Origin: Oceanicoccus sp. KOV_DT_Chl
Lineage (GTDB): Bacteria > Pseudomonadota > Gammaproteobacteria > Pseudomonadales > Dasaniaceae
DNA length: 64,000 nt
Reading direction: 5' to 3'
Assembly: GCF_900120175.1 (NCBI RefSeq)
Contig: NZ_FQLF01000002.1
Coordinates: 248,001 to 312,000 of the forward strand
The position numbers and the translations under genes were made by a program. Shown here piece after piece: positions 17,653-31,175 of the stretch. How positions within the stretch are numbered: the stretch's first letter is position 1; each line of letters begins with the position of its first letter. The notes beneath the pieces were generated by a model, which searched no databases, had not been told where the DNA came from, and worked only from the letters and a program-made list of their open reading frames with translations.

Positions 17653-20121
17653 TTATAAATTCCAAATATTTTCGCTGTATTCACGAATAGTTCGATCACT
17701 GGAAAAAGGACCACTGGCAGCGGTATTAAGGATGCTCATTGACGTCCATTGGCTTTGATCGAGATACACCTGATCAACGCGCTGCTGCGCCTCGATATAA
17801 CTGGCAAAGTCATACGCTGTCAGCCAAGGGTCTGTGGGACTGCGGATGGCATCAATTATGGGTTGAAAAATACCCGGCTCAAATAAATTAAAATGACCAC
17901 TTTCAATCAATCGCAGCACTTCCTTTAACTCAGGGTCTGAAGCTATTGTTTGATTCGGTGAGTAGTCTGAGAAAATATCATCGAGCTGCTCGATACGCGC
18001 CCCAAAGAGAAAGAAATTTTCCTGACCTACTGCCTCCAGCATTTCAACATTAGCACCATCCAGGGTGCCAATAGTCAAACCTCCATTCATCATAAACTTC
18101 ATATTACCGGTACCCGATGCTTCCTTACCGGCTGTTGAAATTTGCTCCGACAAATCAGTGCCTGGACAAATTTTCTCCATCGCAGTGACGTTGTAGTTAG
18201 GGAAAAATACAACGCGCAAATAGGGCTTCACGGCTGCATCTGCATTAATGGTTGCCGCCACATTGGAAATGAGCTTGATAATGGTTTTAGCCATAAAATA
18301 ACCGGGCGCAGCTTTACCACCTATCAGCACACAGCGCGGTACCATATTGTCAGTATCACCTAAGCGAATACGCTCATAGCGATGAATGACATGCAGGATG
18401 TTGAGTAACTGGCGTTTGTATTCATGAATACGCTTAACCTGCACATCGAATAACATCGCCGGATCAAATTCGACTCCCGTCGCCTCTTTTACCAATAAAG
18501 CCAAGCGCTGCTTGTTTTTAAACTTCGCCGCTTGCCACTGCTGCTGAAATTTTTCGTCAGCATGAAAAGGGGCTAATTGATTTATTTTACTAAAGTCAGA
18601 GACCCACTCAGTGCCAATTTTTTCACTAATCAGCTGCGTGAGAATTGGATTACAGTGATGCAACCAGCGCCTGGGAGTGACTCCGTTAGTTTTATTATTA
18701 AATTTTTCCGGCCACAGTTGATCAAAGTGATTAAATAATCCTTCTCGTAATAATCGGGTATGTAACTCTGCAACACCATTGACAGAAAAGCTGCCGACAA
18801 TAGCCAGGTGCGCCATACGGACCTGAGGCACATCCCCTTCTTCAATAATTGACATCGCCGCTTGCTTATCAACATCTCCCGGCCACTTCATTGCCACTTG
18901 CTGTAAAAAGCGTGCATTAATTTCATAAATTATTTCTAACAAGCGCGGCAACAACTTTGCAAACAACCAAACCGGCCACTTTTCCAAGGCTTCGGGCAGC
19001 AAGGTATGATTGGTATAGGCCATTGTGGCGGTAGTGATATTCCATGCAGGCTGCCATGACATACCATACTCATCCATCAGTAAGCGCATCAATTCAGCAA
19101 CAGCAATACTGGGATGGGTATCGTTTAACTGAAAAACGTGTAGCTCACTGAAATAGGTAAAATCCTCGCCATAACGCTCCACCCATTGCACTAAAATATC
19201 CTGCAAGGTTGCTGAGCTTAAAAAATATTGCTGCCGTAAACGTAACTCTTTACCATTTTCACTGCTGTCATTGGGGTATAACACCATAGTGATTTGTTCT
19301 GCTAAATTTTTCTGTGCAACCGCTTCACTATAACTACCAGCATTAAATTCTGATAAATTAAATTCATCAGTGGCTTCTGATTTCCATAAGCGCAAGGTGT
19401 TGACAATATTGTTTCTAAAGCCGGGCACGGGAATATCATAGGGCACTGCCAGCACATCACGGGTATCTACCCACTGATGATGTTGACGACCGTTTTTATC
19501 TTCATACACCTCTACCCGACCAAAAAACTTAATCCGTCGACAATCATCCGGCGCTTTAATTTCCCAGGGATAATCTTCACGTAACCAGTTGTCTGGCTGC
19601 TCAATCTGGTGGCCGTTATCAATCGACTGATTGAACATGCCATATTCATAGCGGATACCATAACCCGTCACTGGCAAACCCAGGCTGGCACAACTATCCA
19701 TAAAACAAGCGGCCAATCGACCTAAACCGCCATTCCCCAAACCCGCGTCATGCTCCGCAGCCTCAACCTCTTCCAGCTCACAACAATATTGCTCTAATGC
19801 TTCACGCACCCGGTCTTCCAGATCCAAATTTAACATGGCGTTATTCAACGAACGCCCCATTAAAAATTCCAGCGACATATAAGCCACTTGCCGATGCGAC
19901 TGACTGCGATGATCATCTCGACTGGCCCGCCAGCGGCCAATCAATTGATCCCGAATACTCAGCACCAGTGCCTGATACAAATAACTTCGGGAAGTCCCAA
20001 CTTTATCTCTACCCAAGGTGTAATAAAAATGACGCGTCAGGTCATCCTTGAACGTTTCTTCATTGATTGCAGGGCCATCATCCCGTCGAATCACTTCACA
20101 AAACGAAGCTTTATCATTCAT
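17653..20121 (-). CDS. glgP: glycogen/starch phosphorylase
   Basis: Releases glucose-1-phosphate from alpha-1,4-glucan ends using pyridoxal phosphate (GT35). The product is about 822 residues, normal for the family. Visible blocks are YMSLEFLMGRSLNNAMLNL (near 80), GLGNGGLGRLAACFMDS (near 110), the NDTHPSIAVAELMRLL block (near 335) and the PLP-lysine motif EASGTGNMKFMMNGG (near 660). ATG 20121 is chosen because it overlaps the glgX stop by 8 nt (ATGAATGA) and has GAGGG upstream; a GTG at 20136 is less likely. It is the fifth gene of the glycogen operon, 36 nt before glgC. Confidence 0.96.
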   Translation of the reverse strand: MNDKASFCEVIRRDDGPAINEETFKDDLTRHFYYTLGRDKVGTSRSYLYQALVLSIRDQLIGRWRASRDDHRSQSHRQVAYMSLEFLMGRSLNNAMLNLDLEDRVREALEQYCCELEEVEAAEHDAGLGNGGLGRLAACFMDSCASLGLPVTGYGIRYEYGMFNQSIDNGHQIEQPDNWLREDYPWEIKAPDDCRRIKFFGRVEVYEDKNGRQHHQWVDTRDVLAVPYDIPVPGFRNNIVNTLRLWKSEATDEFNLSEFNAGSYSEAVAQKNLAEQITMVLYPNDSSENGKELRLRQQYFLSSATLQDILVQWVERYGEDFTYFSELHVFQLNDTHPSIAVAELMRLLMDEYGMSWQPAWNITTATMAYTNHTLLPEALEKWPVWLFAKLLPRLLEIIYEINARFLQQVAMKWPGDVDKQAAMSIIEEGDVPQVRMAHLAIVGSFSVNGVAELHTRLLREGLFNHFDQLWPEKFNNKTNGVTPRRWLHHCNPILTQLISEKIGTEWVSDFSKINQLAPFHADEKFQQQWQAAKFKNKQRLALLVKEATGVEFDPAMLFDVQVKRIHEYKRQLLNILHVIHRYERIRLGDTDNMVPRCVLIGGKAAPGYFMAKTIIKLISNVAATINADAAVKPYLRVVFFPNYNVTAMEKICPGTDLSEQISTAGKEASGTGNMKFMMNGGLTIGTLDGANVEMLEAVGQENFFLFGARIEQLDDIFSDYSPNQTIASDPELKEVLRLIESGHFNLFEPGIFQPIIDAIRSPTDPWLTAYDFASYIEAQQRVDQVYLDQSQWTSMSILNTAASGPFSSDRTIREYSENIWNL

Positions 20122-22192
20122 TCGCTGTACCCTCACTGAAGTTTGCAGTTAACACCCAGGCAGATTGCGCATCTATCGACCAGAGACTGTTGGTTTGGTC
20201 TATCGTTTGAACACTGTTTTCGGCTACGGTGGATAAGAGTACCGTCCATTGATTAGCTGTTGGCAATCGTACTGCAACCGTTTCGGTATGCGCATTGAAC
20301 AAACAAAGTAATTGCTGTGACTGGCCACTATCACACACCCAATAACCTAAAAATAAATTACTGTGGGCAAACCAATCAGCTTTTTGCATAGGCTCCCCCT
20401 GCCGATTCAACCAGCTGATACGGTAAGGTGTATTACCTTCATGAATAAAATCAGGATGCCGTAAACCTGGAAATTGCTGCCTAATACTAATCAGCTGACT
20501 AATAAAATCTCGTAAATCCGTATGCGGCGCTTGTTGCCCGGTCCAATCCATCCAATTACACTCATTATCCTGACAATAAGCATTATTATTGCCGCCTTGA
20601 CTATGGCCTATTTCATCGCCACCGCGAATCATCGGTACACCCTGTGACAACATTAATGTCAGCAACAGATTCTTTTGCTGCTTAAGCCTGAGGGCATTGA
20701 TCGCTGGATCATCGGTTATACCTTCCTCGCCATAATTAGCTGAAAAGTTTTCTGCATGACCATCGCGGTTATCTTCACCATTTTGCAAATTATGTTTCTG
20801 CTCATAGCTCACCAGGTCACGCAATGAAAAACCATCGTGGCTGGTAACATAATTAATACTGGAAAATGGACTGCGGCCATTATGTTCAAAAATATCACTG
20901 GAGCCATGCACACGGCGAGCAAACTCTGGTAGCAAGCCTAAATCTCCGCGCCAGAATCTGCGTACTACATCGCGATAGCGATCATTCCACTCGCTCCACG
21001 GAATTGGAAAAGCTCCCAATTGATAACCACCAGGACCAATATCCCAAGGCTCGGCTATGAGTTTCATTTGACTCAATACCGGGTCTTGCAAAATGGCTTG
21101 AAAAAAACCGCTGGTGGTAGAAAACCCCTCGGGCTCACGGCCTAATATTGGCGCTAAATCAAATCGAAAACCGTCAACGCCCATGACTTGTACCCAGTAG
21201 CGCAGACTATCCATAACCATTTGCAAGCAACGTGGATGATTTAAATCCAGTGTATTGCCACAACCGGTATCATTGATGTAATAACGCGGCTGCTGTGATT
21301 GCAATCGGTAATAGCTGAGATTATCGATGCCGCGCCAACTTAATAACGGCCCCAATCGATCAGCTTCGGCAGTATGGTTATAAACCACATCGATAATCAC
21401 CTCGATGTGGTGCCGATGAAAACTGGCCACCATTTGTTGAAACTCACTAATTTCACCCGTTGCTAAATAGTCACCATGGGGAGTAAAAAAATTAAGCGTG
21501 TTATATCCCCAGTAATTACTTAAACCTTTTTCCTCTAGCCCCGCTTCGCTAATAAATTGCTGTACCGGCAGCAATTCCAGAGTGGTCACTCCTAATTGCT
21601 TTAAATGATCAATAAATGCCGGTTGACAGAGACCGGCAAACGTACCGCGTAACGCATCGGGAATATCCGGGTGTAAGCGGGTTGCACCTTTTACATGGCA
21701 TTCATAAATAACCGTTTCTGACCAGGGAATCTCCGGCCTTAGTGCTTGATACGGTGTCATTGCAACCACTTCGGCTTTAGGAATAAAGGCCGCGTTGTCC
21801 TGTCTGTTTTCAAAATTATCTTCTTCCCGATGACCTATCAAATAGGGAAACTGTTCAGCAGACCACTTAAAATCACCCACCAGTTTTTTAGCATAAGGAT
21901 CAATTAATAATTTTTGGCTGATATAGCGCAAACCCTGGGACGGTTGATAAGCACCGACAACGCGATAGCCATACACCTGCCCAGGCCGACAATGTTGTAG
22001 ATAACCATGCCAAATCTGATTGCTGCGGGCAGGTAATTCAAACCTGGCAATTTCTTTAAGCCCTGCTGAATCAAATAAACACAGTTCAATTTTTTCAGCA
22101 TGGGCAGAAAACAATGCAAAATTAACCCCGTGCTGATCGGGCGTGCTACCTAAAGGAAAAGGACGACCTGCGCTCAGTTTAAAAGCAGACAT
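20114..22192 (-). CDS. glgX: glycogen debranching enzyme
   Basis: GH13 isoamylase-type enzyme that cuts alpha-1,6 branches of phosphorylase limit dextrin; about 692 residues. A CBM48 N-terminal domain (GVNFALFSAHAEKIELCLFD) precedes the TIM barrel with VIIDVVYNHTAE, the nucleophile Asp in VDGFRFDLAPILGR, the acid Glu in LIAEPWDIG and the transition-state Asp in VTSHDGF. ATG 22192 shares one base with the glgB stop (TGATG) and has TTGGGGAG upstream, so it is preferred over TTG 22207. Translational coupling along the operon is likely. Confidence 0.95.
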   Translation of the reverse strand: MSAFKLSAGRPFPLGSTPDQHGVNFALFSAHAEKIELCLFDSAGLKEIARFELPARSNQIWHGYLQHCRPGQVYGYRVVGAYQPSQGLRYISQKLLIDPYAKKLVGDFKWSAEQFPYLIGHREEDNFENRQDNAAFIPKAEVVAMTPYQALRPEIPWSETVIYECHVKGATRLHPDIPDALRGTFAGLCQPAFIDHLKQLGVTTLELLPVQQFISEAGLEEKGLSNYWGYNTLNFFTPHGDYLATGEISEFQQMVASFHRHHIEVIIDVVYNHTAEADRLGPLLSWRGIDNLSYYRLQSQQPRYYINDTGCGNTLDLNHPRCLQMVMDSLRYWVQVMGVDGFRFDLAPILGREPEGFSTTSGFFQAILQDPVLSQMKLIAEPWDIGPGGYQLGAFPIPWSEWNDRYRDVVRRFWRGDLGLLPEFARRVHGSSDIFEHNGRSPFSSINYVTSHDGFSLRDLVSYEQKHNLQNGEDNRDGHAENFSANYGEEGITDDPAINALRLKQQKNLLLTLMLSQGVPMIRGGDEIGHSQGGNNNAYCQDNECNWMDWTGQQAPHTDLRDFISQLISIRQQFPGLRHPDFIHEGNTPYRISWLNRQGEPMQKADWFAHSNLFLGYWVCDSGQSQQLLCLFNAHTETVAVRLPTANQWTVLLSTVAENSVQTIDQTNSLWSIDAQSAWVLTANFSEGTANE

Positions 22193-24408
22193 CAACACGC
22201 TCCCCAAGCAAACATCACCGTTGCTAACGGCGCCAGTTCAATATTAATACTGCAGGGCAAACCATGGCTGGCCAGTGGCTCACTGGTCACTTGCTCCACA
22301 ACGGCACTACCCGAGCCGCCATAACATTGTTTATCACTATTAAATACTTGGCGATAACTGCCTTCAAATTCAACACCCAAGCGAAAGCCCGAATACGTCG
22401 CAGGCGTCATATTGACTACCACCACTACCGCGCGCTGCTTATCCTTACTATAACGAATAAAACTGAACACACTTTGATTGGCATTGCCGCTATCTATCCA
22501 GCGAAAACCTTGCTGATCACAATCCAGCTGATACAAAGCAGGTTCAGCTCGATAAAGCTGATTTAAATCCTTGACCAATTGTTGCAAACCCTGATGATGG
22601 CTTTCGCCAAGCAAATGCCAGTCAAGACTCTGGTCGTGATTCCATTCACTCCACTGACCAAATTCACAACCCATGAATAATAATTTTTTGCCGGGGTGTG
22701 CCCACATAAATCCATAATAGGCACGTAGGTTGGCAAATTTTTGCCAGTCATCCCCGGGCATTTTATTAAGCATTGAACCCTTACCGTGCACGACCTCATC
22801 ATGACTGATCGGTAAAATATAATTTTCACTGAATGCATACACCATCGAAAACGTTAATTGGTGGTGGTGATGGCTGCGATACAGCGGATCACGCTGCATG
22901 TAGGATAGGCTGTCGTTCATCCAGCCCATATTCCATTTATAACCGAAGCCCAAACCGCCCTGATCCACATAAGCAGTGACACCTGGCCAGGCGGTAGATT
23001 CTTCAGCCACCATCATCACACCGGGATGTGAGTGATAGCATTTAGCATTGACCGATTGCAGCAAGGAAATAGCATCAAGATTTTCACGACCACCGTGCTG
23101 ATTAGGCAACCATTCTCCTTCCTTACGGCTATAGTCCAGATATAACATCGACGCGACCGCATCGACGCGCAGGCCATCCAAACCACATTCATCCAACCAG
23201 TAGTTAGCGCTGGATAATAAAAAGCTACGGACTTCATTGCGACCATAATTATAAATATGGGTATTCCAGTCAGGATGAAAACCCAAACGAGTATCCGCAT
23301 GCTCATATAAATGGCTGCCATCAAAGCGCGCCAACCCATACGCATCGGAGGGGAAATGCCCCGGCACCCAATCCAGTAACACGCCAATTCCAGCTTGATG
23401 AAATTGCGCTACCAGGAAAGCAAAATCGTTAGCATCGCCAAAGCGTGAAGTCGGTGTAAATAACCCTACCGGCTGATAACCCCAGGAGCCATCAAAGGGA
23501 TATTCAGACAGGGGCATGAATTGCACATGGGTAAAACCCATGTCTGCCACGTATGGCACCAACTCCTCCGCCATCTGCCGATAACTCAGATAGCTGTGTG
23601 GATCGACGCTATTACGCCGCCATGATCCCGCATGCACCTCATAAATTGAAATTGGTTGATCCACTTGATTGATTTGGTCACGGCGCGCTAACCATTTTTG
23701 ATCAACGGTTGGTGATTGCGATTTAAATAATATTGCCGCCGTTTGCGGTGGACGCTGCATTGCTGCTGCAAACGGATCCGCCTTTTCCATCCGTTCACCG
23801 GTAATACTGACGATAGAAAATTTATAACACTGCCCCGCTTGTAGTGCTGGAATAAATAATTCCCACAAACCCGACGCGGGATGTTTGCGCATAATATGGC
23901 AGCAAGGATCCCAATGATTAAAATCCCCAACCACAGAGACACAGCGTGCATTGGGAGCCCAAAGACAAAACCGTACCCCATCCACAGTTTGCTGCTGAGT
24001 AAACTGAGCCCCCAAATGGCGATAAGCCTGCTGCAAATTCCCTTCATTGAATAAATAAACAGCGGCCTCATCCAACCCGGATAGAAAGCGATAAGGATCA
24101 ACAAGCTCTACACTCGTACTTTCATATTCAATATGTAACAGGTATTCAGCATCAAAGTCTTTTGCAGAAATGCTAGCGATAAATAATGCGGAATCTGCAA
24201 CACGCTCAGCGTTGACAACGCCGTTTACCGACGTCACGCTAACGCGTACAGCTGAGGGTAAATAGCAGCGCACTTGATATTCACCCTGCGCATTTAAATG
24301 TGGGCCAAGAAAGCTGAACACATCCTCAAAACACGCTTGTTCTAACGCCGCAAGAGAAGCTTGATAAGGCATAGGTATCATTTCCGTTGACGGATTAGGT
24401 GTCAGCAT
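22192..24408 (-). CDS. glgB: 1,4-alpha-glucan branching enzyme
   Basis: Forms alpha-1,6 branches in glycogen (GH13), 738 residues. An N-terminal carbohydrate-binding module is followed by a CBM48 domain (GVRFCLWAPNARCVSVVGDF, near 145) and the catalytic barrel with the YEVHAGSW block (near 250), the Asp in LDGLRVDAVASMLYLD, the Glu in MVAEESTAWPG and the HD of PISHDEVVHGKGSM. The start overlaps the malQ stop by 7 nt (ATGCTGA) and the end shares a base with the glgX start. Confidence 0.97.
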   Translation of the reverse strand: MLTPNPSTEMIPMPYQASLAALEQACFEDVFSFLGPHLNAQGEYQVRCYLPSAVRVSVTSVNGVVNAERVADSALFIASISAKDFDAEYLLHIEYESTSVELVDPYRFLSGLDEAAVYLFNEGNLQQAYRHLGAQFTQQQTVDGVRFCLWAPNARCVSVVGDFNHWDPCCHIMRKHPASGLWELFIPALQAGQCYKFSIVSITGERMEKADPFAAAMQRPPQTAAILFKSQSPTVDQKWLARRDQINQVDQPISIYEVHAGSWRRNSVDPHSYLSYRQMAEELVPYVADMGFTHVQFMPLSEYPFDGSWGYQPVGLFTPTSRFGDANDFAFLVAQFHQAGIGVLLDWVPGHFPSDAYGLARFDGSHLYEHADTRLGFHPDWNTHIYNYGRNEVRSFLLSSANYWLDECGLDGLRVDAVASMLYLDYSRKEGEWLPNQHGGRENLDAISLLQSVNAKCYHSHPGVMMVAEESTAWPGVTAYVDQGGLGFGYKWNMGWMNDSLSYMQRDPLYRSHHHHQLTFSMVYAFSENYILPISHDEVVHGKGSMLNKMPGDDWQKFANLRAYYGFMWAHPGKKLLFMGCEFGQWSEWNHDQSLDWHLLGESHHQGLQQLVKDLNQLYRAEPALYQLDCDQQGFRWIDSGNANQSVFSFIRYSKDKQRAVVVVVNMTPATYSGFRLGVEFEGSYRQVFNSDKQCYGGSGSAVVEQVTSEPLASHGLPCSINIELAPLATVMFAWGAC

Positions 24409-26495
24409 GGGCTTTGCCGCGCTTGTTGTAAACTAGCCCAAAAAACCTGATCGGATAATAGCTCAGGTAGGGTGAGAGATAGTCGACGACGCCAGTTAGG
24501 ATATTGTTTATCCGTGCCAGGAATATTTACAGGCGCAGGCTCGGCATCCAGATCCTCCAACTGCACTGCAAACAAACTTACCGGTGACCCAGCCAACTTT
24601 ACTGCCAGTTGTTTAAATAGTTGCTGTGCTGACTGCGGCTCACTCACTACTGCCTGACTGTGATCAGCAGCGCCCAGCCAGCGCAACAAAGCGTCTTTAT
24701 CGCGCTTGCGTTGTTGCAAGGCAGCTTGATAATCCTGTTCATCAGTAAATAAATTCAGCGTTTGCCGCAAGCGTAAATCATCAGTTTGCCACCAACAGGC
24801 AAACGGTGGTACATCATGGTTAGCTATCATCATTAAGGCGCGGGGGGTTATATGTGATAACGGCCTAAACTCACCCTGATGATCCTGTTCAAAATAAAAT
24901 AATAGATTCGAGTAAAGTTGCCCGGCAGCCATGCCTTCTTTTACTTGTTCTGGAACGATACCCAAATCCTCTCCAATCACCACACAGCGATTGAGTACAC
25001 TTTCCAATTTTAAAATTTCCATTAATTCGGCAAATGGATAATAAACATAGCATCCATTGACTTCACCATCGGCCGCTGTGCCACTCGTTGGCTGATTTTC
25101 CAAACACCACCACAAGCGCAATAAACCCATGACATGATCAATTCGTAAGGCACCGCAATCACGCATATTAGATGCGACTAACTGCATAAAATGCTGGTAG
25201 TTATCCGCTTTAAGTTGCAGCGGATCAATTGGCGGCAAGCCCCAATTTTGACCCTGCGGGCCTAGCGGGTCAGGCGGAGCACCAATACTGGCACTGGTCA
25301 CAAACAGTGCAGCATGACGCGCGACTTCACTGCCATCGCCAGTGCAGCCTACAGCAAGATCACGTATCAAACCCAGCTGCATCCCACTGGCTATTGCTGA
25401 CGCCTGTACATGCGCTAATTGTTGATGCGCTATCCATTGCAAATAAAACGTAAACTCCGGCATGTTATCCGTAGCCGCCATTGCGCCTGGCAGGCACTGA
25501 CTCAACCAATCCGCGTGAGTGCTTAAGCGCGCGTGATGCAGGTCACAAAAAGTATTAAATTCTGATTCCCGAACAGAGCCGGAGCCTAACTCCTGCGCAC
25601 AAAAATGTTCAAACATCAGGCCAAACAATGCATATTTAAGCTTCACAACTGCACTGTAATCAATCCAGTCGGCGCTGCGTAGCTGCTTTAACTGCTGCTT
25701 AAAAGCTTGCGTCTTTAGATGAGCGTTTACAGCAGCACTAGCAGTAAAATCGACTACATCATCAGGAAAAATATACACCGGATTCAATAAAAACCGATCA
25801 CTGGGGCTGTAGGGACTAGCCCGTTCCGGCTCATGCGGAAACAGTGCATGCAGTGGATTAAGCATCACAAAATTAGCGCCGGCACTGCCCGCTCTGCGTA
25901 CCAACTCGGTCAAATCCCGAAAATCACCAATGCCATAATTGTCATCGCTTCGCACACTATAAAGCTGCGTTGAAAGCCCCCAAAATCGCTGGTCCAAGTA
26001 GGGGTTATAAGCTTGATCCGGGCTAACAATCAGTAAAGCTTCAGCAGATTCACCATTCACTTCAATGCGGTAACGATAATAAGCTGGCGCTAACGCATTG
26101 AGCGACCAACTGCGCTCAATATAAAGCTCTGAGCCAATTTGATAACGCCCGGTTTCTTGCTGCAAGCTCGCGTCAACTTCACCCTTGACCACCAGATCAT
26201 CGCCAGCAAATATTGACCAGTGCACCATTGCCGGTTGCTGGGACTGAGCTAAGCGGATTAGTAACTTTGGTGCTGAAGCCCTGACAAATACCGTGGCAGG
26301 TAATAAATCCTGCCAGGGTTTGGCATCCAGTAAGAAATTACTATTAGCTATAGCAGCAGCATCTTTGATGTCATGACCACAAGCGGCTAGCACTGACTTA
26401 CGGGTTGAGTCAGCTATCCGACATAAGTTGCCACTATAGTCACGGTAATCAAGCGCAACGCCTTGCAAATACATCAATTGCTCAATTGCAGTCAT
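24402..26495 (-). CDS. malQ: 4-alpha-glucanotransferase (amylomaltase)
   Basis: GH77 disproportionating enzyme, 697 residues, which transfers maltodextrin segments and produces glucose or longer chains for phosphorylase. The barrel begins near residue 170 (WGLSTQLYSVRSDDNYGIGD). Catalytic blocks are the Asp in LRIDHVMGLLRLWW (near 450), the Glu in VIGEDLGIVPEQVK (near 505) and the HD of ANHDVPPFACWW. The roughly 165-residue N-terminal extension is the form found in bacterial MalQ proteins such as E. coli. Grouping with glgB/X/P shows a role in glycogen turnover rather than maltose uptake; no mal transport genes are in the window. Confidence 0.95.
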   Translation of the reverse strand: MTAIEQLMYLQGVALDYRDYSGNLCRIADSTRKSVLAACGHDIKDAAAIANSNFLLDAKPWQDLLPATVFVRASAPKLLIRLAQSQQPAMVHWSIFAGDDLVVKGEVDASLQQETGRYQIGSELYIERSWSLNALAPAYYRYRIEVNGESAEALLIVSPDQAYNPYLDQRFWGLSTQLYSVRSDDNYGIGDFRDLTELVRRAGSAGANFVMLNPLHALFPHEPERASPYSPSDRFLLNPVYIFPDDVVDFTASAAVNAHLKTQAFKQQLKQLRSADWIDYSAVVKLKYALFGLMFEHFCAQELGSGSVRESEFNTFCDLHHARLSTHADWLSQCLPGAMAATDNMPEFTFYLQWIAHQQLAHVQASAIASGMQLGLIRDLAVGCTGDGSEVARHAALFVTSASIGAPPDPLGPQGQNWGLPPIDPLQLKADNYQHFMQLVASNMRDCGALRIDHVMGLLRLWWCLENQPTSGTAADGEVNGCYVYYPFAELMEILKLESVLNRCVVIGEDLGIVPEQVKEGMAAGQLYSNLLFYFEQDHQGEFRPLSHITPRALMMIANHDVPPFACWWQTDDLRLRQTLNLFTDEQDYQAALQQRKRDKDALLRWLGAADHSQAVVSEPQSAQQLFKQLAVKLAGSPVSLFAVQLEDLDAEPAPVNIPGTDKQYPNWRRRLSLTLPELLSDQVFWASLQQARQSPC

Positions 26496-26514
26496 CGCTG
26501 CTTAGCCTCTAGGT

Positions 26515-26817
26515 TTACCTGGCAACCTGCGTATAAACAACACTGTTGTCAGTGCCAAAATTATTAGGTATATACGCATCGGCCTGATAATCATTTTCCC
26601 ACTCACTGTCATTTAATAAGTAGCGAAAATAAAAAACTTCGTCTTTTGGTAATTTAACTTTTGCCCTGAACACTTTATCCTTTCGGCTAAAGCTCATATC
26701 CAATGGCTGCCAGTCATTAAAATCGGCTACCAAACTAACGGATTCAATATCTGCTCTTGAAAATTCAAACGTCACTTCAGTTTGATCTTTGGACTTGATA
26801 AATTTCTTTTTCAACAT
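26515..26817 (-). CDS. small stand-alone glycogen-binding (CBM48-like) protein
   Basis: A single carbohydrate-binding module of 100 residues with no catalytic domain. VSLVADFNDWQPLDMSF and VFYFRYLLNDSEWENDYQADAYIPN form the isoamylase-N/AMPK-beta type fold, in which the Trp residues bind alpha-glucan. The last part (NFGTDNSVVYTQ) matches the usual end of these modules. GGGAG lies about 7 nt before the ATG. It is first in the operon, 19 nt before malQ. By analogy it may bind glycogen and recruit or regulate the enzymes; that role is inference. Confidence 0.85.
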   Translation of the reverse strand: MLKKKFIKSKDQTEVTFEFSRADIESVSLVADFNDWQPLDMSFSRKDKVFRAKVKLPKDEVFYFRYLLNDSEWENDYQADAYIPNNFGTDNSVVYTQVAR

Positions 26818-27262: not shown

Positions 27263-28240
27263 CTAGAGTAAGTAGCTGCCATTTTTCCCTGCTTCTTTTA
27301 CCCGGTACATTGCCGAGTCAGCAAGATTCAATAACACTTCTGCGGTTAACTCAGCTTCGTGTTTAACGTCAGGAAAACACACCACACCAACCGAGCAAGT
27401 AAGCTCTAGCGTTTGTTGCTCAATTACCATTGGCTCAGTGCAATGCTGCAATAGGTGATCAGCTATTTGTTGAGCATGGGTTTCATCCACACTTGCTAGC
27501 AAGATACAGAATTCATCACCTCCCAGTCGGGCCGCCGTATCCGACGAGCGTACAATGCTAGTGAGGCGATCAGAAAATTCGACCAATAAAGCGTCACCGA
27601 CTTTATGCCCATATTGATCATTAATGATTTTAAAGTTATCCAAATCGATATACAGCAACGCCCATCGCACCTCTATTCTTCCGGCTAAGGCGATCGCCTG
27701 ATCGATACGGTCTACCAATACCGACCGGCCCCACAAACCGGTTAGGGCATCGTGATGCGCAAGATGCATAAGCTTGGAGAAAATAAAATTATTATTGACG
27801 GCGTAACGAATAGCCCTTTCAAGGTTACTCGCACTGAGTTCAGACTTAGGTAAATAATCTATACAGCCAGCATAGATAGCCTGTTGATCAACATCAATAG
27901 AGTTTTGTTGGGAGACTAAAATAATTGGAAAATCAATTTCTTTTGAACCCAGCATCCCAAACAAAGCCAGGCCTTGCTGGTTACCCATATTGTAATCCAG
28001 CAAGGCGACATCATAATCATGCATCAAGATAAGCTCTTCAGCACGCTCAAGGCTAATCGCATGATCAACCGTGTATTGGGTATAATCAACTCGCAATAAA
28101 TAACGTTTGAGAATTTCGATATCCTGCTCATTGTCATCAATAATCAACACTCGCAAATGCGCATGCAAGGTAGCTCGAATACCATTGGGCCTGAAAATCG
28201 AGGGCTGCTTTTTACTTAATTTATTATCAAAGTCTGTCAT
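27263..28240 (-). CDS. response regulator with diguanylate cyclase output (REC-GGDEF)
   Basis: Two-component output protein of 325 residues that should make c-di-GMP when phosphorylated. The receiver domain (about 29-150) has the acidic pair Asp35/Asp36, the phosphoacceptor Asp82 in LLDYNMG and Lys132 in LPKSEL. The GGDEF domain (about 165-325) is intact: metal Asp in YIDLDNFK, GGDEF at 240-244 and the product-inhibition RxxD at 231-234. It is divergent from the ethylene-receptor-like gene and kinase across 224 nt, making it the likely partner of that kinase, though this is not proven. Active catalysis and feedback inhibition are predicted from the motifs. Confidence 0.93.
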   Translation of the reverse strand: MTDFDNKLSKKQPSIFRPNGIRATLHAHLRVLIIDDNEQDIEILKRYLLRVDYTQYTVDHAISLERAEELILMHDYDVALLDYNMGNQQGLALFGMLGSKEIDFPIILVSQQNSIDVDQQAIYAGCIDYLPKSELSASNLERAIRYAVNNNFIFSKLMHLAHHDALTGLWGRSVLVDRIDQAIALAGRIEVRWALLYIDLDNFKIINDQYGHKVGDALLVEFSDRLTSIVRSSDTAARLGGDEFCILLASVDETHAQQIADHLLQHCTEPMVIEQQTLELTCSVGVVCFPDVKHEAELTAEVLLNLADSAMYRVKEAGKNGSYLL

Positions 28241-28464
28241 TTACTTTTTGCTACCTCATTAAAGTAACGGTCAAAAGCTCAAACTTATTCCACAAGACTA
28301 GCCAATATCAGTATAAGCATTAATTCGCTTTAGGTCACACCCCGGCTAACGCTTCTTTCTTCTGTAAACTATTACTTACTTAGCAATTATGTATCAACGT
28401 ACTATGCTTATTAGCGGTAACACACCATAGCGGCACCGCCGTGAAAGGACAAGAGGATAACCCC

Positions 28465-29031
28465 ATGTTGCAATGGCTCAATGACTTATCCAACCCTGCA
28501 TTTATGCCTCACGGCCATTGCTATTTGTGGAGGCCCGATATCCTGGGGACGCACGTCATCTCCGACCTCAGCATTGCCATGGCCTACTATGCCATCCCTG
28601 CCGTACTGGCGATTGTGCTATATAAACGACGCCAAAACATCCCCTACCCGGAAGTATTAGCGCTTTTTGTAGCCTTCATCTTTCTTTGTGGCACTACGCA
28701 TCTGATCAATATTTATGTGACATGGTTCCCAGCCTACGAAATACAAGGCTGGGTCAAAGCACTGACTGCTGTAGTGTCTGTCGCCACAGCCTTAACCCTA
28801 ATCCCTAAGCTGCCCGCGCTATTAAATCTGCCAGGGCTCAAACAAGCTTATGAGGAAAGCCAGCAAGCACTACAATTACTCAACGAAAAAAATCAACAGA
28901 TGGAAACGATGTATGCCAATGTCATGGAACGGGAAAACCGCCTTCTGGAGCTAAAAGAAGAAGTCAATAAATTACTGGAAGCACAAGGCGAAACACCTAA
29001 ATACTTGCAAACCCCAGGCACGGCTCCATGA
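28465..29031 (+). CDS. ethylene-receptor-like three-helix membrane sensor
   Basis: Membrane protein of 188 residues resembling the N-terminal ethylene-binding domain of plant ETR1. Three helices lie at about 33-53, 63-85 and 95-115. The ETR1 ligand and copper-site residues are kept in register: Asp34 (ETR1 Asp25), Tyr41 (Tyr32), Ile44-Pro45 (Ile35-Pro36), Cys75 (Cys65) and His79 (His69). Near-identical stretches are LCGTTHLIN versus LCGATHLIN and LTAVVSVATALTLIP versus LTAVVSCATALMLVH. A coiled coil (about 120-165) and the tail ELKEEVNKLLEAQGETPKY follow; there is no kinase domain. ATG 28465 has AAGAGG about 9 nt upstream and is preferred over GTG 28441. The stop overlaps the next start (ATGA). 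Fold and site are clear; ethylene as ligand is inferred. Confidence 0.85.
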   Translation: MLQWLNDLSNPAFMPHGHCYLWRPDILGTHVISDLSIAMAYYAIPAVLAIVLYKRRQNIPYPEVLALFVAFIFLCGTTHLINIYVTWFPAYEIQGWVKALTAVVSVATALTLIPKLPALLNLPGLKQAYEESQQALQLLNEKNQQMETMYANVMERENRLLELKEEVNKLLEAQGETPKYLQTPGTAP

Positions 29032-31175
29032 GACTTCTGCAATTATTATTATGTGTACTGCTATTGGTCATAGCGATTACTTATAACTATACCCACCGGC
29101 AAAACAACCTGACGGCGGTTCAAACAATATCGTCGCTAAATGAAGTCCTTGGCAATCGCGGCCGTCTCCGTAACAGCATGGTCAATGCCTATGCTTCACA
29201 TCTTGAAAGAGAACGCCAAGGAATAAAGGCCCCTTTTATCTTTACTATTCAGGCCAATCATCTCCCCCTTTCTTACGGGCTATCTGATCCACAACACGAA
29301 CTTTGGCCGCAAGCAAAAGAAATCCTCCGTCAAAATGCCCGCTTGCAATCCATCTTAAAGACTCTGGAAATTAAAATACAGCAACAACATTCCGACCAAG
29401 CCTCAGTGGACATTAAAAAAACAATTGATGAGGCCATTGAGGTTATAGATCACTTGCAGCAGCTAGATATAGAAAAAACCCAGTTGCTTGTTAACTTTTT
29501 ACTACAACAACAAACCCGGGGATTACTAATAAATGCAGGACTAATCGTCCCTGCACTGTTGTTACTGTTCTGGTTTAGTTTTACCCGACAAAAAAATGCT
29601 CTCAATCATAGCAACGAGCTAAATAAAGCGCTGAACAACAAGCAATCCGAACTCGTTAAAGCCCAGAAAATAATGACCAGCATTCTGGAAGACACCAGAA
29701 TCGAAAAAGAACTAGCGGTTAAACTTGCCAAGCAAAACGAATTACTTGCAAAAATGGTCGCTGAGGCTTCTGATGCCATGTTACAACTCGCCCCTGACGG
29801 TAAAGTACTAATTAAGAATCATGCAGCGGAGAAATTATTTAATTTGAAGAACAACAATAACCCAGACCTCAATATCAAATCATTTTTTACCCCTGATCAA
29901 GCTATCGATATTCAGGATACGTTAACCTCTACTATCAAACACCATCAAGCTATATCAACGACTATAAATGGCGATACTCTCGGCCGATTAACTAGAGAAA
30001 AATACCTGTTAAATTTTTCACCAATGAGTGGCGAAAAGGCCAATAGCAATAGTATCTCGCTAATTATCCACAACACTACGGCACAATATGAAGAACAGGA
30101 AAATTTAACCTTATTGATTAATCAGGCACCCATCGCACTGATTGTTGCCGATGAAGACGGGAACATAACCTTTGCCAACGCTCAAGCCGACCAGCTATTT
30201 GGCTATCAACCTGAACAACTCCAGCAACTCAAAATTGAAGCTCTCGTTCCCGATAACGTAAAATCCCAGCACCCGAAAAATCGACTCAACTTTCGCAAAA
30301 ACCCCGCCGCTCGTGCAATGGGAGAAGGTAGAGATTTAAAAGGACTACGAAAAAATGGCACCGAAATCCCGATAGAAATAGGTCTGAGTCCCTTAACAAC
30401 AGCAACTGGAAATTATGTTGTCGCGTCTATAATAGACATTACGGAAAGACGTAATGCGCAGAGTAAGCTCGAAACACTCAATGAACAGCTAGCCACTAAA
30501 AATAAGGAACAAAAAGCTTTTTGCTATAGTTTGTCGCATGATTTCAAAGCATCGATCAGACGGATAGACCAGTGGACCCAATTACTGGAAGACGATTTAA
30601 AACATCGGGCAAGCCTAAACGAAAAAGATGCAGAAACCTTCGACGCAATCGCCACCAACATCGATCAAATTAATAATCTCGTGGAGAATTTGTATCAGCT
30701 ACTGTATGCAGAAGCCGATGACCAGCTCCCCCAACCCGTTGACCTGAATCGTATATTGCAAAGAATAGAACAAGTAATGCGCAGCTATCCTGAGAGAGAA
30801 TTTGATATACAAGCTGCCCCCCTTCCTACTATCACCGGCAATGAAGCACAGCTACTAATACTGTTCCAGAACATTCTCAGTAATGCTATCAAACACAATG
30901 ATAACGTAGTCCCCACAATCACAATCACCGCCGAATTGGATCGCAACACGTCAACTCAGCGAATTATTTTTAGCGATAATGGACCTGGTATTGAAGACGA
31001 GTGGATTGAAAGAATTTTTGAGCCCTTTTTCCGCGCTGAAAAAAGCCATTACAATGGTGGCACCGGCTTGGGGCTCAGTATTTGCACGCGCGTTATGGAT
31101 TGGCATGGAGGCTCGATCAAGGTCAAAAGCCAAATAGGAAACGGCAGCCAGTTTATTCTTAATTTTCCTGCGTAA
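29028..31175 (+). CDS. PAS-domain sensor histidine kinase
   Basis: Membrane histidine kinase of 715 residues. Membrane helices at about 4-20 and 167-186 enclose a helical periplasmic region. A coiled coil and two PAS domains follow (about 240-355, and about 360-475 with FANAQADQLFGYQPEQL). The H-box is SLSHDFKASIRRID (near 500), the N-box ILFQNILSNAIKHN and the G-boxes SDNGPGIED and GGTGLGLS. The H-box resembles the phytochrome/HWE-adjacent type (SHD.KAS) rather than SHE.RTP. The start overlaps the stop of the ethylene-receptor-like gene by 4 nt, so the two are made together and probably act as one sensor. The REC-GGDEF protein across the divergent promoter is the likely target. Confidence 0.92.
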   Translation: MRLLQLLLCVLLLVIAITYNYTHRQNNLTAVQTISSLNEVLGNRGRLRNSMVNAYASHLERERQGIKAPFIFTIQANHLPLSYGLSDPQHELWPQAKEILRQNARLQSILKTLEIKIQQQHSDQASVDIKKTIDEAIEVIDHLQQLDIEKTQLLVNFLLQQQTRGLLINAGLIVPALLLLFWFSFTRQKNALNHSNELNKALNNKQSELVKAQKIMTSILEDTRIEKELAVKLAKQNELLAKMVAEASDAMLQLAPDGKVLIKNHAAEKLFNLKNNNNPDLNIKSFFTPDQAIDIQDTLTSTIKHHQAISTTINGDTLGRLTREKYLLNFSPMSGEKANSNSISLIIHNTTAQYEEQENLTLLINQAPIALIVADEDGNITFANAQADQLFGYQPEQLQQLKIEALVPDNVKSQHPKNRLNFRKNPAARAMGEGRDLKGLRKNGTEIPIEIGLSPLTTATGNYVVASIIDITERRNAQSKLETLNEQLATKNKEQKAFCYSLSHDFKASIRRIDQWTQLLEDDLKHRASLNEKDAETFDAIATNIDQINNLVENLYQLLYAEADDQLPQPVDLNRILQRIEQVMRSYPEREFDIQAAPLPTITGNEAQLLILFQNILSNAIKHNDNVVPTITITAELDRNTSTQRIIFSDNGPGIEDEWIERIFEPFFRAEKSHYNGGTGLGLSICTRVMDWHGGSIKVKSQIGNGSQFILNFPA

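Follow-up and report, generated by a model that had tools for sequence, protein, structure and literature searches.

This analysis concerns a stretch of 64,000 nucleotides (nt) from the gammaproteobacterium Oceanicoccus sp. KOV_DT_Chl (contig NZ_FQLF01000002.1, positions 248,001 to 312,000; hereafter, the window), in which a stand-alone ethylene-binding domain (EBD) protein is encoded directly upstream of a membrane-bound PAS histidine kinase. The binding domain constitutes a separate membrane protein, its gene overlaps the kinase gene, and this arrangement is kept in relatives. The pair is best explained, with a probability of roughly 0.62, as a two-protein ethylene receptor, in which a Cu(I)-ethylene sensor would act on the kinase in trans through a C-terminal tail and a box in the kinase linker, and would probably feed a receiver-GGDEF protein; the ligand, the contact between tail and box, and the output are inferred. 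The tail on the split EBDs and the box of their partner kinases are the new elements described here.

The ethylene-binding-domain protein, its tail, and the linker box of partner kinases

The EBD protein matches the Pfam family ETR1_N (PF25487) with an E-value of 3.2e-33 and 114.3 bits, passing the cut-off of 27; no other ETR1_N match reaches E <= 0.001 in the genome of 4.83 Mb. Its open reading frame (ORF) begins with ATG, preceded by AGAGG 8 nt upstream, and an alternative GTG start at 28441 would yield 196 residues. A first-pass annotation, made by a model from the letters of the DNA, had proposed an ETR1-type domain in the 188-residue membrane protein, to be checked by a profile search, and had named the site residues Asp34, Tyr41, Ile44-Pro45, Cys75, and His79; the search bears out the domain and the residues are present, with I72 and K98 as additions. 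D34, Y41, I44, and P45 are located on helix 1, I72, C75, and H79 on helix 2, and K98 on helix 3, and the protein therefore carries all seven site residues together with the helix-3 lysine. Y32, I35, P36, and I62 of ETR1 are taken here to be four of the seven residues needed for ethylene binding. The other three, D25, C65, and H69, are reported as needed residues (PMC11819568). The full D-Y-I-P-I-C-H set is found in 77 of 98 aligned EBD ORFs, including the window protein; of the 98 domains, 95 retain C75 and 97 retain H79, the presumed copper ligands.

AzoEtr1 of Azospirillum brasilense (525 residues), taken from a plasmid of strain Sp7 and located by its published primer start, is identical to the window EBD at 52 of 124 aligned residues and agrees at the seven site positions and K98. 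Residues 1-130 of AzoEtr1, produced alone, are reported to bind ethylene (PMC11819568), indicating that a kinase-free domain can bind. Binding of Cu(I) and ethylene by the window protein is likely on grounds of homology and residues. In the AlphaFold2 model (63 aligned rows; mean predicted local distance difference test score, pLDDT, 90.5), three membrane-length helices are followed by one long helix. In the model, C75 and H79 are spaced i, i+4 on helix 2, and the shared Cys/His site that the first-pass annotation asked of a predicted fold is supported in this weak sense. A sequence search of solved structures with the EBD gave a single insignificant match at E <= 1 (0.75). A further ETR1_N-like membrane protein of 138 residues (L238 6805-7221; also L017) exceeds the cut-off with 40.6 bits; its Cys and His are kept, its Asp is replaced by Ala, its neighbours resemble a prophage by inspection, and it has no match at E <= 1e-3 in 50,697 phage records.

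The protein had previously been described as ending after a coiled coil. This is corrected here: the last 33 or so residues of the coiled coil form a conserved tail, and the partner kinases share a linker motif. The tail is a 33-residue motif, approximately RExRIxELKxEVNxLxxxLGxxxxY, which ends 13 of the 14 split EBDs described below; R8, E9, E18, N20, L22, and Y32 are invariant in an alignment of 12 rows, from which L026 was dropped as a near-copy of L025. In the window, the tail scores 52 bits and lies 8 residues from the C-terminus of a kinase-less sensor, inside the limit of 60 residues used here to define split sensors of the tail-and-box kind, and the downstream kinase carries the box ahead of its core. 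Over the ORFs of loci L001-L157, the tail profile (>= 15 bits) detects the 13 split EBDs and, in L022, one PAS-like protein encoded upstream of an EBD-fused kinase, and no fused EBD protein; a weak hit, L161 (refetched as L165), contained nothing over 15 bits. The tail occurs once in the window genome. With this genome counted, it was detected in 5 of the 143 class genomes (E <= 0.01) and in 42 of the 299 phylum genomes (E <= 0.001). A sequence search of solved structures with the tail yielded two insignificant matches at E <= 10.

Tails also end proteins that lack an EBD. A hand-picked, non-random sample of 21 such proteins (L163, L164, L196-L214) was assembled with internal tails left out, L171 being located at a contig end, and 18 of the 21 are from genomes outside the window's class. 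The next gene encodes a histidine kinase in 13 of these loci and one gene intervenes in 7, and a kinase is accordingly next or next but one in 20 of the 21. The intervening gene encodes a periplasmic binding protein by Pfam in L202 and L211, a similar protein by inspection in four more loci, and a 389-residue protein in L204. Six loci (L202, L203, L211-L214) contain three-gene sets of a tail-ending PAS protein, a periplasmic binding protein (by Pfam only in L202 and L211), and a box kinase; in L211-L214, genes resembling a corrinoid methyltransferase system and a partly cut-off metal-transporting ATPase are additionally seen by inspection. In L163 (3847-9177), a 1178-residue PAS protein ending in the tail has a PAS-GGDEF protein and genes interpreted as KaiC-like and KaiB-like as its neighbours. 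In 14 loci of L167-L195, the last tail copy is internal, and the order is PAS, tail, often a further domain, box, and then the kinase where the stretch reaches it; the stretches of L170 and L172 end shortly after the box. The further domain is presumably PocR.

The box was defined by the pattern [SN][IVLM][LMA]xD, and sites N-terminal of the kinase core were counted. It is present in all 13 partner kinases of tailed EBDs, each with exactly one site in its first 300 residues. Other tail partners carry it in 18 of 21 cases, L199, L206, and L022 being those without it; the nearest kinase in L022 is EBD-fused and 813 bp off, and may be no partner. Counted over the kinases near non-EBD tail-ending sensors (L164, L196-L214), the figure is 18 of 20, and all nine tail-fused kinases have the box. 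By contrast, it is found in 5 of 114 EBD-fused kinases, whose five sites have a different setting (two fall within the EBD), and in 1 of 54 other kinases of the same loci. The Fisher p-values are 4.5e-14 (EBD partners versus fused kinases), 5.5e-13 (EBD partners versus other kinases), and 2.5e-13 (other partners versus other kinases), although related rows are treated as independent and these values overstate the association. When the kinases are clustered at 45% core identity, the EBD partners fall into 7 clusters, all with the box, and no cluster mixes EBD partners and other partners, so the box is common to distinct kinases. Hydropathy indicates two transmembrane (TM) segments in 10 of the 13 EBD partner kinases (the first being doubled in L028), three in L011, and one in L033 and L038. 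An N-terminal region common to all partner kinases was considered and is unsupported by these differing patterns; the box is thus their common element.

Split loci in relatives and the candidate output

A scan of genome contigs yielded 230 relatives, and the best 80 were retained. Among these 80, 12 relatives (L024-L031, L033, L034, L038, L103) have an intact stand-alone EBD gene (called at 133-253 residues) that is followed directly by a histidine kinase gene; together with the window and L011, 14 intact split loci are available, L035 being cut by a contig end. The two genes are spaced by -4 to 124 nt, and the -4 spacing of the window recurs in L024 and L034. The best eight matches are all split, which is partly due to the query itself being split. 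The split is conserved in relatives and is no artefact; frameshift or assembly error as its source is ruled out by the recurrence in 14 loci.

Whole-genome surveys with overlapping samples give ETR1_N matches over the cut-off for 45 of the 390 genomes sampled in the order, 12 of the 369 in the class, and 28 of the 398 in the phylum. Among the listed open frames, such matches in frames of up to 215 residues are limited, for the order, to the window, G489, and G512; for the class, to G293 (L011) and G070 (L238, with changed site residues); and for the phylum, to a short piece in G983. G489 (L234) holds the same genes as L030. G512 (L235) encodes an EBD of 164 residues with no tail and no kinase directly downstream in a genome that is 84% complete, and is probably a broken fused gene. 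The first-pass annotation had considered a two-protein sensor of this kind unusual in a gammaproteobacterium; this is true of the split and not of ETR1_N domains themselves, which are not rare in the order. None of six same-genus genomes has an ETR1_N match, indicating that the system is patchy.

In two EBD trees, nine split rows (the window and L024-L031) group on one branch with support of 96 and 97 in the SH-like approximate likelihood ratio test (SH-aLRT); these are quick trees of few columns, with four long rows left out of the second. The free trees require several changes for the origin of the split. The approximately unbiased test does not reject a constraint that keeps all 13 tailed rows in one group (p-AU 0.82), and this constraint scores above the free quick tree. 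L103 (4983-6824) encodes a 133-residue EBD that ends right after helix 3, without a tail, and an adjoining kinase that has three hydrophobic segments, lacks the box, and is counted among the 54 other kinases; the split may have arisen separately in this locus. Two Legionella loci, L044 and L048, encode an EBD-fused hybrid kinase of 835 residues.

The divergent gene upstream of the EBD gene, which the first-pass annotation did not include, encodes a protein whose receiver and GGDEF domains both exceed their cut-offs. A receiver-GGDEF gene is present within 5 kb at 8 of the 14 split loci, versus 5 of 66 fused loci (p 9e-5; loci with short flanks kept in). The larger stretch around L011 (L215) shows a window-like order of divergent receiver-GGDEF, EBD, kinase, and then receiver, and in L025, the single Colwellia locus given Pfam annotation, the protein is a receiver-GGDEF-EAL protein. 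Ethylene is reported to raise biofilm formation and phototaxis in Synechocystis (PMC6682694) and to lower biofilm formation in A. brasilense (PMC11819568), and a gene containing a diguanylate cyclase domain is described as grouped with GeiEtr2 of Geitlerinema (PMC6682694). An output through cyclic diguanylate (c-di-GMP) would fit these reports, and the receiver-GGDEF protein is tentatively proposed, at slightly below even odds, as the output of the kinase. In L025-L029 (Colwelliaceae), genes for a receiver, a receiver-kinase, and one more kinase are clustered just upstream of the split receptor, and four of these five loci have a receiver-GGDEF gene as well. EBDs fused directly to GGDEF (313-326 residues) are encoded in L005 (1435-2376), L236 (4647-5627), and L237 (4690-5631), L005/L237 being from the window's family (G009); this would be a one-protein design leading from ethylene to c-di-GMP.

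Proposed mechanism and alternative explanations

In the proposed receptor, C75 and H79, supported by D34 and K98, would hold Cu(I), and ethylene would be bound there among the helices. Binding would shift the membrane helices and, in turn, the long helix behind them, and the tail at the end of this helix would engage the box of the kinase, in the linker that joins TM2 to the first PAS domain, thereby altering autophosphorylation at H504. The kinase would merge the EBD input with that of its own membrane and PAS domains, and phosphate would pass to the divergent receiver-GGDEF protein, such that ethylene may tune c-di-GMP. Coupling of the EBD protein to the adjoining kinase is likely, whereas the chances that the tail-box contact is the coupling route are about even. 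A broader proposal, somewhat less probable than that contact, is that tail and box are the halves of a general trans-coupling connector by which many separately made kinase-less sensors, among them ethylene domains, multi-PAS proteins, and those grouped with periplasmic binding proteins, would dock onto an adjacent kinase; its basis is association.

Several results weigh against the two-protein receptor or its parts. Foldseek comparison of the EBD model with the PDB returned 149 matches at E <= 10, none of them at E <= 0.001, and the kinase model is poor (pLDDT 66, with most of the first 250 residues below 70). L103 has a split EBD without tail or box, and L163 a tail-ending protein without a kinase next door. 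The box pattern was written after the 13 EBD partners, including that of the window, had been viewed, and their 13/13 is consequently no independent test. The other tail partners do provide an independent test, but they form just 7 clusters, of which 4 have the box. The region before the kinase core has a median length of 557 residues in these partners versus 206.5 in other kinases, which favours chance sites. A box profile built from the EBD partners reaches only some 10-20 bits in non-EBD partners, with matches that frequently overlap the coiled coil at the kinase core, and stays below 8 bits in all nine tail-fused kinases, where the agreement comes from the short pattern. The contrast is also weaker when the short pattern is counted anywhere in the protein: it then occurs in 14 of the 115 EBD-fused kinases and in 36 of the 90 others, a group that includes the partners. 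With respect to the output, of the eight split loci that have a receiver-GGDEF gene nearby, four belong to Colwelliaceae, and a search of 9 family relatives with the window receiver-GGDEF protein (E <= 1e-40) gave no match in 8 and one of 34% identity.

The same two-protein design may serve another ligand, with the Cys/His site sensing copper, another olefin, or another Cu(I)-binding small molecule. Ethylene is backed here by homology and residues, and the near-constancy of C75 and H79 says little about the final ligand; the retention of all seven ethylene-binding residues and the identity to the ethylene-binding AzoEtr1 domain argue for ethylene, and a different ligand is considered improbable. 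It is less improbable, but still unlikely, that tail and box make no contact and are the halves of an older continuous linker, left by splitting or not yet joined, while the pair uses another interface. The fused proteins run from tail to box (directly or after another domain) to kinase, common descent would produce the same co-occurrence, and a single cluster (13 rows, one a duplicate) accounts for 12 of the 18 box-bearing non-EBD partners. However, both motifs have stayed conserved after the split, in kinases with differing N-terminal regions, and conservation at an exposed C-terminus suggests use.

It is quite improbable that the two proteins are mere neighbours and that the EBD protein works with another kinase or alone. 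The kinase, with membrane and PAS domains of its own, could act by itself, but the genes overlap or lie at most 124 nt apart in 14 of 14 split loci, and tail and box are associated. Decay, frameshift, or misassembly of an ordinary fused receptor kinase has a negligible probability: L235, whose 164-residue EBD lacks a tail and comes from a genome that is 84% complete, may be an instance of this, but the window kinase has its own start codon, TM1, and inter-TM region, and nine genomes on one branch share the split.

Layout of the locus and known systems

The features of the locus are listed in Table 1. A separate kinase with its own membrane region, starting in a 4-nt overlap, had already been recognized in the first-pass annotation, and this is upheld by the ORFs and by hydropathy for TM1 and TM2. 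The core motifs of a histidine kinase are present (H504 and N/G-box residues); H504 is invariant across 12 aligned kinase rows, and N615, N619, D650, G652, and G654 are among the invariant columns. Promoter and terminator scans remained within the spread of shuffles, with 9 promoter-like matches versus 6.6 +/- 2.8 in shuffles of the scanned stretch. By inspection, glgX, glgB, malQ, and a small GlgB-like protein (20114-26817) flank the receptor locus. secF is kept in 10 of 10 family genomes, including that of the window. In five stretches from relatives, one of them just 2.4 kb long, tblastn (E <= 1e-8) detected secD and secF only; the pair, the receiver-GGDEF gene, and the glg-side genes (glgB, malQ, and the small GlgB-like gene) were not found beside secDF, and as all are lacking alike, these stretches provide no clean empty site.

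Table 1. Features of the split receptor locus (positions in the window; aa, residues of the respective protein)
Feature	Position	Strand	Basis
Divergent receiver-GGDEF protein, 325 aa, candidate output	27263..28240	-	PF00072 E 4e-16, PF00990 E 1e-44
Divergent intergenic region, 224 bp	28241..28464	.	ORF borders
Stand-alone EBD protein, 188 aa, ETR1_N	28465..29031	+	Pfam, site residues, AlphaFold2
Three membrane helices, aa 24-54, 62-87, 91-120	28534..28824	+	AlphaFold2, hydropathy
Long helix after the membrane domain, aa 123-173	28831..28983	+	AlphaFold2
Conserved C-terminal tail, aa 149-180, core RENRLLELKEEVNKLLEAQGETPKY	28909..29004	+	Alignment, profile
4-nt overlap ATGA of EBD and kinase genes	29028..29031	+	ORFs
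Membrane PAS histidine kinase, 715 aa	29028..31175	+	Pfam
Kinase TM1 (aa 1-19), inter-TM region, TM2 (aa 165-183)	29028..29576	+	Hydropathy; low-confidence model
Kinase linker box, aa 204-238, core SILED at 29679-29693	29637..29741	+	Motif/profile comparison of partner kinases
Two PAS regions, aa 244-309 and 363-476	29757..30455	+	Pfam
HisKA with H504 (SHDFK)	30516..30701	+	PF00512 E 2.5e-4, below Pfam cut-off
HATPase_c	30840..31169	+	Pfam E 5e-24

No report of a split ethylene receptor or of the tail was found in the literature searched, which comprised mostly titles and abstract openings, with subscription journals and preprints largely outside it. To our knowledge, the relay of ethylene binding from the three membrane helices to the kinase is still open, and a natural two-piece receptor lets binding domain and kinase be made, mixed, and mutated apart. 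Should the tail-box connector prove real, it would predict the partners of many kinase-less sensors and could be used directly as a part in engineered ones; if it is general, the ethylene receptor would be one cartridge of a modular split-kinase system.

Bacterial proteins with an ethylene-binding domain are described as having a wide range of output domains (PMC7700396). The characterized receptors described in the sources cited (plant ETR1 and ERS, SynEtr1, GeiEtr1 and 2, and AzoEtr1) carry binding domain and kinase in one chain (PMC6682694, PMC11819568). SynEtr1 (slr1212) of Synechocystis and plant ETR1/ERS resemble the window system in an N-terminal three-helix ethylene domain tied to histidine kinase signalling, but they are single chains (PMC6682694), whereas the window has two chains and a kinase with a further membrane region. 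AzoEtr1 likewise shares the binding domain, the seven site residues with K98, and a histidine kinase output, but is a single EBD-PAS-kinase protein in which neither tail nor box was found; a response regulator without a recognized output domain is reported just downstream of it (PMC11819568). The EBD-GGDEF proteins (L005/L237, L236) have the same domain tied to a diguanylate cyclase domain, but by direct fusion and without a kinase. The kinase-less tail sensors (L164, L196-L214) share the tail at the extreme C-terminus and a kinase next (13) or next but one (7), but PAS or other regions replace the EBD, and 18 of the 20 are outside the window's class. Encoded by two ORFs, the window system does not belong to the single-polypeptide ethylene receptor kinases of the ETR1, SynEtr1, and AzoEtr1 type, although it may work like such a single-chain receptor.

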